Of a stretch of 64,000 nucleotides of DNA, positions 32,538 to 35,125 are shown one piece after another; within the stretch, counting starts at the first letter, position 1, and the number at the start of each line of letters is the position of its first letter. The stretch lies in contig NZ_CP157355.1 in the NCBI RefSeq assembly GCF_040047665.1, positions 2,604,001 to 2,668,000 of the forward strand, read 5' to 3'. The DNA is from Chitinibacter sp. FCG-7. Its GTDB lineage: Bacteria > Pseudomonadota > Gammaproteobacteria > Burkholderiales > Chitinibacteraceae. The notes beneath the pieces are model-generated. The model was not told the DNA's origin. It searched no databases and saw only the letters and a program-made list of their open reading frames with translations. Position numbers and translations under genes: made by a program.

Positions 32538-32568
32538 AAAGGCCGCAAAGCATTAGCTTGCGGCCTTT
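32538..32568. terminator. Intrinsic terminator after ssb
   Basis: AAAGGCCGCAA and TTGCGGCCTTT are perfect 11-bp arms with a nine-base loop, followed by ATTATTTC. It is nearly symmetric, so it could act in both directions. Confidence 0.88.
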
Positions 32569-32580
32569 ATTATTTCTAGT

Positions 32581-32730
32581 CTAGACATCAACATCTCGGC
32601 CTAAGCGGACAGACAAAACTGCTGCGTAGCTGGCGAAATCAGTAGCGTCACTACAATCGGACTCTAAAATCACGTGCAGCTCAATACCGGGGGGGTCGAT
32701 AAGGTTGTTTCCCGCTAGAGGCCTATTCAT
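32581..32730 (-). CDS. Possible small ORF or gene remnant (49 codons)
   Basis: A 49-codon frame reads from an ATG at 32730 to a TAG at 32581-32583. The product (MNRPLAGNNLIDPPGIEL... ending in VRLGRDVDV) has balanced protein-like composition but no ribosome binding site, and I know no family for it. It may be the decayed end of a gene disturbed when the adjacent cassette was inserted. Support is weak. Confidence 0.22.
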   Translation of the reverse strand: MNRPLAGNNLIDPPGIELHVILESDCSDATDFASYAAVLSVRLGRDVDV

Positions 32731-32752: not shown

Positions 32753-32812
32753 TTGACAAATCTCCTTGGTCACTAAAAAATTAGTCCACGGTCCATGGAC
32801 GGTGGACTAATT
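32753..32812 (+). promoter_or_regulatory. Promoter and 34-bp palindromic operator of the three-gene cassette
   Basis: TTGACA at 32753-32758 is followed after 17 bases by a weak AAAAAT -10 box. From 32779 to 32812 lies a palindrome in which 16 of 17 base pairs match: AATTAGTCCAC on the left, GTCCATGGAC in the centre, GTGGACTAATT on the right. It is built of four GTCCA-type half-sites. It covers the end of the -10 box and the expected start point, the classic place for a repressor, and ends 13 bases before the first gene, which encodes a winged-helix protein. Confidence 0.78.
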
Positions 32813-32825
32813 GGATTAATGAAAA

Positions 32826-33470
32826 ATGAAAAGTCAAGATATCCTATTGTTACTCAAGTTAGTGTCCCTTGAGCAGCAGGGGACTGTGCACAAGAAGGCA
32901 GGCCTCCTTGCGATCCACCAATTGATGGATCTGTCGTGGAAAGATTGGGACGAGGATAGCACCTTAGACTTTGAATCAACGCAAGATCCAACGCCAAGCG
33001 GCGACAGCAGCCCATATAGCGTCAGGGGGCTTGCTCAGCTAACCGGGATCGGCAAGTCAGAAATCAGCAATGCCTTGTCACGTTGTTTTTTTAGCGGGCT
33101 AGCTAAACAGGGCAGGGGTGACAGTTCGCTAACAGTGAACACCAAGGCGTTGTTGGAGTTTCTTGTTTATGGCATCCGCTACGTCTTCCCTGTCAAATTA
33201 CAAGAAAATACGCGAGGCATCGCTACCTGCCTGACTGCACCGATCTTTGGAGGAGAGCTACGTTCGACGGAGCAATCCCCAGTTTGGCCATATGCAAAGG
33301 GCAACTCATCCGGCCCAGCCATTGAGCCCCTTTACAAAACGGTGCCGGTCGCTGTGAATCAGGACCCTCAGCTTTATGCAATGCTAGCATCGCTTGACTC
33401 TATCCGGCTGGGGCTGCCTAGGGAACGCAATCTGGCTGTCAAGAAATTGGAAACACTCCTTCGAGGCTAA
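32826..33470 (+). CDS. Winged-helix transcriptional regulator of accessory cassette
   Basis: The 214-residue protein has a helix-turn-helix at about residues 64-100 (YSVRGLAQLTGIGKSEISNA), resembling MarR or Rrf2-type winged helices, inside an otherwise unfamiliar protein. The N-terminal 60 residues include an acidic stretch and the C-terminal 90 residues a basic region ending in helices (NLAVKKLETLLRG). It is first in a tight three-gene operon and the palindrome in front of it suggests autoregulation. Three bases separate it from the next gene. The ribosome binding site is poor. It may also act as antitoxin or sensor. Confidence 0.75.
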   Translation: MKSQDILLLLKLVSLEQQGTVHKKAGLLAIHQLMDLSWKDWDEDSTLDFESTQDPTPSGDSSPYSVRGLAQLTGIGKSEISNALSRCFFSGLAKQGRGDSSLTVNTKALLEFLVYGIRYVFPVKLQENTRGIATCLTAPIFGGELRSTEQSPVWPYAKGNSSGPAIEPLYKTVPVAVNQDPQLYAMLASLDSIRLGLPRERNLAVKKLETLLRG

Positions 33471-33473
33471 GAA

Positions 33474-34184
33474 ATGGCGACCAAAGAAGATCACATAGTG
33501 ATGATCACCGCAGTGGCTAAGGCAATGGGGCAGGAACTCTGCAATGAAGTCGCTTTTGTCGGAGGGTGCACCACAGCTTTGCTTGTGACAGACTCCTATT
33601 CTCAAGGGCAAGTCCGTCACACCGATGACGTTGACCTGATTGTTCATGTCATCAGCACAGCTGGATGGCACAGTTTGTGCGAAAAGTTGCTTACTCGTGG
33701 ATTTAAGGCGTCTATGGAGACAGATGCTGTTCCGATCTGTGCCATGCTCTTGGGCCAATTGCGCGTAGATTTCATGCCAGACGATGAAAGCATCTTGGGA
33801 TTTACAAATCAGTGGTACAGAGAAGCCTTCCAGAAGGCTGTGCCATACCGACTTCCAATCGGCATGAACATCCGACTAATCCCTCCAACCTACTTTATCG
33901 CCACAAAGCTTGAAGCTTACTTACAGCGCGGTGATGATGATCCGATCGCAAGTCGGGATGTTGAGGATATCTTGACGCTGATTGATGGTCGCACCGAGCT
34001 GCTGGAAGAGCTACTGGACGCCCCCGAAATGCTCAAGACATATGTCAGCGTACAAATGGCCGCGCTGCATAAACACCGGGACTTCGAGTATGCCGTGCAG
34101 GCGGCGACCAACAATGATCCTTCAAGAGAGGATGTCCTTTTTGAACGTATCAAGCTAATCATTTCACAAGGCATCAGAGCATGA
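33474..34184 (+). CDS. AbiEii/MNT-like nucleotidyltransferase
   Basis: The 236-residue protein has the pol-beta nucleotidyltransferase signature: FVGGCTTALL (GG-x-T helix), the metal-binding pair in HTDDVDLIV, and the third Asp in LRVDFMP. The later segment FIATKLEAYLQRGDDDP followed by SRDVEDI is typical of AbiEii/MNT-type enzymes, where such residues support nucleotide binding. These enzymes modify tRNA or proteins and are frequent toxins or antitoxins. All catalytic residues appear intact. It lies between a regulator gene (gap three bases) and a PP2C gene (four-base overlap). Confidence 0.82.
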   Translation: MATKEDHIVMITAVAKAMGQELCNEVAFVGGCTTALLVTDSYSQGQVRHTDDVDLIVHVISTAGWHSLCEKLLTRGFKASMETDAVPICAMLLGQLRVDFMPDDESILGFTNQWYREAFQKAVPYRLPIGMNIRLIPPTYFIATKLEAYLQRGDDDPIASRDVEDILTLIDGRTELLEELLDAPEMLKTYVSVQMAALHKHRDFEYAVQAATNNDPSREDVLFERIKLIISQGIRA

Positions 34185-34885
34185 ATGCCATTCCCCACTT
34201 TGACTGCTCATGGGTCAGTATCAAGGGATTTGATCAAGCCGAAAACCGCGATGCCGGGGGCGTGTTTGCCTGCGGCACTTATACGTTTGCCGTCATCATG
34301 GATGCGTCAGGGCATGGCACCAAGGCTATCTCATTCACTGCAATCTGGCTGAAGGCGCTGCTAGCACTGCTACCCGAATCAACTCCCACTGCTGACAGCG
34401 TTGTCCAGCTTATGCGGGAAGCCCATCAAAAACTTCGAGAAGCACGATTGTTTCAGGAACGGGCTTGTTTTGCTGCGTTGCTCATCCCACATGATCGTAG
34501 TCCCTGCACGGCGTTCATTAGTGGCGATTGTCGAATCGGATCTCAGCCCAAAGTTGAAGAAGTACATTGGCTGACTCCCGTCCACACTCTTGAAGCAGCC
34601 TCTGCCAAAGTCTTTAACGATGTGGGTGGGCTCGTAAACCGCCAACTTGTGACTCGGGTCTTGAAAGCCCGTAGGTTTGATCCGCCGGAACTGATGCAAC
34701 TCAGCCATGACATAGGGCAAGCCTGGATTCTCGCAACAGATGGATTCTGGCGCTCAGATTGTTCTGCAGAAAAGTTGCCATCGGATGATTGTAGTTTCTT
34801 GCGCTTGCACCATGAAGGCACCAGCTCTGTCCAGCAGCATCACGATGATGATAACTTGCATCTCGTCGGTATATACGCGACCTAA
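34181..34885 (+). CDS. PP2C/SpoIIE-type protein phosphatase
   Basis: The 234-residue protein shows all PPM-family metal and phosphate motifs in order: an N-terminal ENRDAGGVF, VIMDASGHGTKA (the DxSGHG of SpoIIE/RsbU phosphatases), FISGDCRIG, WILATDGFW and DDDNLHLV at the C-terminus. It should be an active Mn/Mg-dependent serine/threonine phosphatase. It has no extra sensor domain. The start overlaps the nucleotidyltransferase stop (ATGA), indicating coupled translation and a joint function. The substrate could be the nucleotidyltransferase, the regulator or a host protein. Confidence 0.85.
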   Translation: MNAIPHFDCSWVSIKGFDQAENRDAGGVFACGTYTFAVIMDASGHGTKAISFTAIWLKALLALLPESTPTADSVVQLMREAHQKLREARLFQERACFAALLIPHDRSPCTAFISGDCRIGSQPKVEEVHWLTPVHTLEAASAKVFNDVGGLVNRQLVTRVLKARRFDPPELMQLSHDIGQAWILATDGFWRSDCSAEKLPSDDCSFLRLHHEGTSSVQQHHDDDNLHLVGIYAT

Positions 34886-35092
34886 TTTTGTGTCCGTAAG
34901 ATGTATGGCTGTATTAGTCGCCTCTAGTTTGCTAGATGCCTTTTGTGCTGCTTTGAACATGAAAGCAGCCACCATTTACCTGGTGTCCTAAGGACAGCTT
35001 TGGCCGAACTCCAGCCGCTGTGCGGGGTTGATTGAATGGTCGCTGTATTTCGTTAGCTGCTTCAAATAACAAGCAACTTTATCCACCACCCG

Positions 35093-35125
35093 AGCCCCTC
35101 ACACTAGGGGCTTTTGTTTGTTTTT
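35093..35125 (+). terminator. Intrinsic terminator after the three-gene cassette
   Basis: AGCCCCT and AGGGGCT pair around a six-base loop and run into TTTTGTTTGTTTTT. The 200 bases between the phosphatase stop and this hairpin contain no gene that I can support. It closes the cassette against the convergent buf/sigma operon. Confidence 0.85.

Follow-up and report, generated by a model that had tools for sequence, protein, structure and literature searches.

A PDC-M21 cassette of Chitinibacter sp. FCG-7: a winged-helix/nucleotidyltransferase core with an accessory PP2C-type phosphatase that may re-arm a predicted toxin

Why should a predicted nucleotidyltransferase share an operon with a predicted phosphatase, and do the genes concerned form one system? 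The question is raised by a cassette of three genes on the plus strand of a 64,000-nucleotide stretch of the Chitinibacter sp. FCG-7 genome (NZ_CP157355.1, positions 2,604,001 to 2,668,000), hereafter called the window. Gene A (32826-33470, 214 aa) encodes a winged-helix protein predicted to act as autoregulator and antitoxin, gene B (33474-34184, 236 aa) an AbiEii/MenT-like nucleotidyltransferase and predicted toxin, and gene C (34181-34885, 234 aa) a predicted PP2C-type Ser/Thr phosphatase. A previous sequence-only reading of this DNA had described three tightly coupled genes and the coordinates bear this out, with a gap of 3 nt between A and B and an overlap of 4 nt between B and C. In relatives, the spacing ranges from -14 to +1 between A and B (52/52 loci) and from -11 to +9 between B and C (29/30 loci), figures which show only that such starts exist, the start codon closest to the preceding stop having been taken each time. 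The same reading had called the cassette unnamed, which has to be corrected. Indeed, all three proteins match, nearly over their full length and as adjacent genes, the PDC-M21A, PDC-M21B and PDC-M21C models (E-values of 6e-67, 2e-93 and 6e-52) of PADLOC-DB, a library of models for known and candidate defence proteins. The cassette is identical to this catalogued candidate, whose entries carry no description and no stated mechanism and whose name was not found in any of the literature searched. We propose, tentatively and with a little less than even confidence, that A and B form a nucleotidyltransferase toxin-antitoxin module and that the PP2C-type protein C strips the phosphate from Thr50 of B, re-arming the toxin.

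Across genomes, the core unit is the pair A-B, whose neighbourhood goes beyond chance. Counting the window, 72 distinct loci were compared, and A lies 5' of B in 68 of them; the four exceptions are a locus cut by a contig end (L049) and three in which B is split or without a start (L061, L067 and L069). Among 398 genomes of the phylum, B was found in 33, A in 33 and both in 30, and the two genes are adjacent in every both-positive genome whose locus was inspected, as the sequence-only reading requires of its genes in other genomes. The three genomes with B only have weak matches (E 4e-6 or worse), and the three with A only comprise one weak match and two orphan A genes. The 14 known control genomes gave B in one, A in two and C in one.

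The trio as a co-occurring unit, as the sequence-only reading had it, did not stand: C is present in 48 of the 95 loci that could be scored. Scored on a tree of 101 B proteins (98 of them different), C is present for 48 and absent for 47, six being unscorable because of a contig end, and its distribution requires at least nine changes; one locus with C at a distance of 3.1 kb (L042) was scored as absent. Because of this patchy presence, we consider C an accessory gene, gained or lost several times. C was matched in 21 of the 398 phylum genomes, and the six matches above 60 bits all fall in genomes that have A and B; in one of these genomes (G146), C is found on a different contig, at its end. 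The remaining 15 matches are weak, one of them (G286) resembling a decayed cassette.

Residue conservation was read from alignments of 32 sequences per protein, made of 31 of the 55 intact B proteins, 31 of the 64 A proteins and 20 of the 34 C proteins, each with the window protein, and for C also of 11 of the 16 proteins of a second set. B has the predicted fold of MenT-type enzymes and keeps G30, G31, D52, D54, D99 and K145 in 32/32 sequences, while Thr33 of the GG-x-T motif is kept in 30/32. The nucleotidyltransferase identity and the intact catalytic residues claimed from the sequence are thus upheld; beyond the DxD motif, the equivalence of the third Asp and of the Lys with those of MenT is our own reading of the alignment. 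AbiEii of Pfam weakly matches 15 of the 32 B proteins at E <=0.01. Since the window protein scores below the curated cut-off of that family (20.4 bits against 22.5), we name it MenT/AbiEii-like and do not file it under AbiEii. In its modelled fold and its catalytic residues, B resembles toxins of the MenT1 type, which modify tRNA, and it is predicted to be a toxin itself.

The residue on which our proposal turns is Thr50 (codon 33621-33623, plus strand), a predicted regulatory phosphosite. It precedes the first Asp of the DxD motif by two residues and aligns with Thr39 of MenT1, whose phosphorylation silences that toxin. Position 50 is a threonine in 32/32 aligned B proteins and in 92 of the 101 rows of the tree, while the other nine are fragments that gave no match to the motif.

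In C, residues D24, D41, G115, D116, D187, G188, D202 and D203 are found in 32/32 aligned sequences, so that the metal ligands of a PP2C phosphatase are intact, as had been claimed. The claim that every metal motif is kept needs qualification for the second one, which reads D-A-S-G-H-G in the window instead of the canonical DGxGG and varies among relatives. The window protein alone falls under the Pfam cut-off (SpoIIE, 20.2 bits against 25) and the assignment to PP2C rests on the family profile, which matches PP2C chains of the PDB at E 2e-10; PP2C_2 of Pfam matches 18 of the 32 members. On these grounds, C is a predicted PP2C phosphatase.

The model of A has a winged helix (mean predicted local distance difference test score, pLDDT, of 87.9), which agrees with the winged-helix regulator described earlier. 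The overall pattern, however, points to something more specific, an antitoxin-like autoregulator, because orphan A genes occur while every intact B observed has its A unless the contig ends there. Of the 32 A proteins, 14 match MarR_2 of Pfam at E 0.01, the window protein not being among them, and at this threshold no AbiEi family was found for any of the 32; A matches no antitoxin family of Pfam. One orphan A gene (L178, 5042-6666) lies close to an apparent gene pair that we take, from the translations, to be MNT-like and HEPN-like.

The sequence-only reading also placed a dedicated promoter-operator and a terminator around the cassette. Of these, the operator is the part that exceeds chance. 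It lies directly upstream of A at 32784-32807 (no strand assigned), near the expected transcription start, and consists of four half-sites, GTCCACGGTCCATGGACGGTGGAC, arranged as GTCC-N3-GTCC-N2-GGAC-N3-GGAC within a 34-nt palindrome (32779-32812). Among 67 loci, the window's being one of them, 64 show the same layout upstream of A with at least 13 of its 16 fixed positions matched (47 with all 16), mostly some 30-45 nt 5' of the gene, against 4 of 5000 control segments taken from the same loci. In the three loci under 13/16, A is in pieces or short (L016 and L029) or has an uncertain start (L038). Allowing up to three mismatches, the operator is unique in the 3.58-Mb host genome, compared with eight occurrences per strand for the reversed control pattern. 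The flanking elements are consensus matches, which by themselves prove little: a sigma-70-like promoter (TTGACA-17 nt-AAAAAT, 10/12, 32753-32781, plus strand) upstream of A and a terminator-like hairpin (35092-35113, plus strand) downstream of C. Between 32500 and 35200 we found one promoter-like site against a mean of 2.5 in shuffled sequence (sd 1.5) and five terminator-like sites against 2.8 (sd 1.8).

In 31 further and mostly divergent loci, the half-sites read ATTC/GAAT instead of GTCC/GGAC in 22 and GTCC/GGAC in six, neither form being found in three (L090, L093 and L097). The control for the ATTC form gave 42 of 2000 segments at 13 or more, segments containing the true site having been left in. 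The simplest reading is that A would bind the four half-sites and repress its own operon. A family of small genomes (f40; L079-L100 and L138-L143) supplies 16 of the 33 B-positive phylum genomes; its A-B pairs are without C and mostly carry ATTC/GAAT operators.

Among described systems, MenAT1 and MenAT3 (TakA-TglT) likewise combine a nucleotidyltransferase with a partner gene, and B shares with their toxins the MenT fold, the DxD motif, the Lys and the phosphoacceptor Thr. MenA1, unlike A, has no winged helix; TakA represses its own promoter, as proposed here for A. The source literature, in the portions available, describes no phosphatase in the MenAT1 and MenAT3 operons, unlike in the cassette. 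PstP is a housekeeping PP2C enzyme. TglT/MenT3 is described as silenced by phosphorylation of Ser78; its authors argue that the toxin would not become active again on losing its antitoxin, and they postulate a phosphatase, not yet identified (PMC7205606). In vitro, PstP was slow to dephosphorylate TglT/MenT3 (PMC7205606). The missing role postulated there is one that a PP2C gene overlapping that of a MenT-like enzyme fits, and this widespread operon offers a natural and testable candidate for such a phosphatase.

Under the proposed mechanism, A and B are taken to be a toxin-antitoxin pair of the MenT/AbiE kind; A would repress the operon and, like MenA1 or MenA3/TakA, would bind B and prompt it to phosphorylate itself at the active-site Thr. 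Unphosphorylated B would add nucleotides to tRNA or another RNA and halt translation. C, made from the same transcript, would reverse the phosphorylation upon infection or stress, providing a fast switch for which no new toxin is required; as for the trigger, our guess is that a phage product may be sensed directly by C, the less conserved protein. The notion that the phosphatase controls the transferase, already put forward from the sequence, appears sound and can be made specific by pointing to Thr50. The proposed layout of a phospho-silenced nucleotidyltransferase toxin with its own phosphatase was not found in the literature searched, mostly at overview depth. A bolder extension, which we regard as possible though doubtful, is a family of toxin-antitoxin systems each bringing along the phosphatase that arms it, with the PP2C protein tuned to a phage signal, B activated instantly and the whole serving as a plug-in abortive-infection switch in BREX and type I restriction operons. 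In that case C would be, to our knowledge, the first phosphatase dedicated to nucleotidyltransferase toxins that are silenced by phosphorylation.

Among the other explanations, the one that survives best leaves A-B as a complete toxin-antitoxin pair and directs C at a phosphoprotein of the host or phage, or at A, as an add-on that widens the range of triggers. The accessory status of C speaks for it, together with its low conservation (mean column identity of 29% against 46% for A and 57% for B, in sets that differ, that of C taking 11 proteins from another collection). The position of the C start, only a few bases from the end of B, and the confinement of all six strong matches of C to genomes with A and B, tell the other way, and we judge this explanation unlikely, if worth keeping in view.

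Somewhat less likely still is that C is an antidote which reverses harm done by B, such as a tag on a protein or RNA. Enzymes with the PP2C fold, such as the deAMPylase SidD, are able to take nucleotide groups off proteins. C follows the B gene closely. KKP offers a parallel, being a tripartite phage-defence system whose toxins are Ser/Thr kinases and whose phosphatase neutralises them as the antitoxin (PMC11341870). However, KKP requires two Ser/Thr kinase genes, and no kinase family is among the matches of the three window proteins. Moreover, 47 of the 95 scorable loci have kept A-B but have no C, so that C is not an obligatory antidote, and the constant partner of B is A. Finally, we think it improbable that no toxin is involved and that A and B are a regulatory or small-molecule-modifying pair, comparable to aminoglycoside or lincosamide nucleotidyltransferases, tuning a neighbouring operon.

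Beside the proposed toxin-antitoxin module with its arming phosphatase, two other established types were compared with the cassette. In AbiE, a winged-helix antitoxin gene precedes the nucleotidyltransferase gene, as in the cassette, and the weak AbiEii matches among B proteins are a further likeness; A has no AbiEi match, window B stays under the Pfam cut-off and C is an extra gene. By sequence, A is therefore not the AbiEi antitoxin of a type IV system, no AbiEi match having been obtained for the 32 A proteins. HEPN-MNT systems (type VII) also place a nucleotidyltransferase beside a partner gene, but A is a winged helix and not a HEPN partner.

As to the genomic setting, the sequence-only reading had asked whether such cassettes lie in defence islands, and a part of them do lie inside defence operons. 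In 15 of 86 loci (one of which seemingly repeats another), a BREX or type I restriction core gene stands no more than 2.5 kb away on the strand of the cassette; none was found in the other 71 or at the window copy, so that nesting in defence operons is recurrent but not general. The order brxC-A-B-C-pglX occurs, for example, in L009, L012, L024 and L152, hsdR-A-B-hsdM in L014, L017, L018 and L023, and hsdR-A-B-C-hsdM in L149; such modules thus ride within BREX and restriction operons. Taken beyond the PADLOC-DB entry, an undescribed candidate gains definition, with A-B as its core, a phosphatase as an accessory, a private operator, a predicted phosphosite at Thr50 and a recurrent place within operons of BREX and type I restriction. 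In one locus (L010, 3824-8327), a type I restriction operon holds a SoFic-type gene and A-B between hsdR and hsdM, and in another (L064, 6407-9172) a match to RTasPolA, a reverse-transcriptase defence type of PADLOC, lies upstream of a PDC-M21 cassette. Plasmids carry B as well, in 114 records of which 46 are predicted to be conjugative, and its neighbours are unrelated in the five plasmid loci examined.

The window copy lies between ssb, upstream, and a sigma-factor gene with its operon, downstream on the other strand; both names are presumed from the sequence-only reading, that of ssb from its translation. Five further genomes of the genus lack B. The closest relative has 97% and 94% DNA identity in the two flanks, yet other genes occupy its ssb-sigma junction (L157, 7953-9173); judged by their translations, these presumably encode a MerR-type regulator and a short-chain dehydrogenase, and the junction is therefore variable. 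A segment of about 75 nt that follows ssb (32538-32616), made of a terminator hairpin and a tail with CGGCCTAAGCGGACAG, recurs at about 70-82% identity in several places of the host genome and elsewhere in the genus, in other species.
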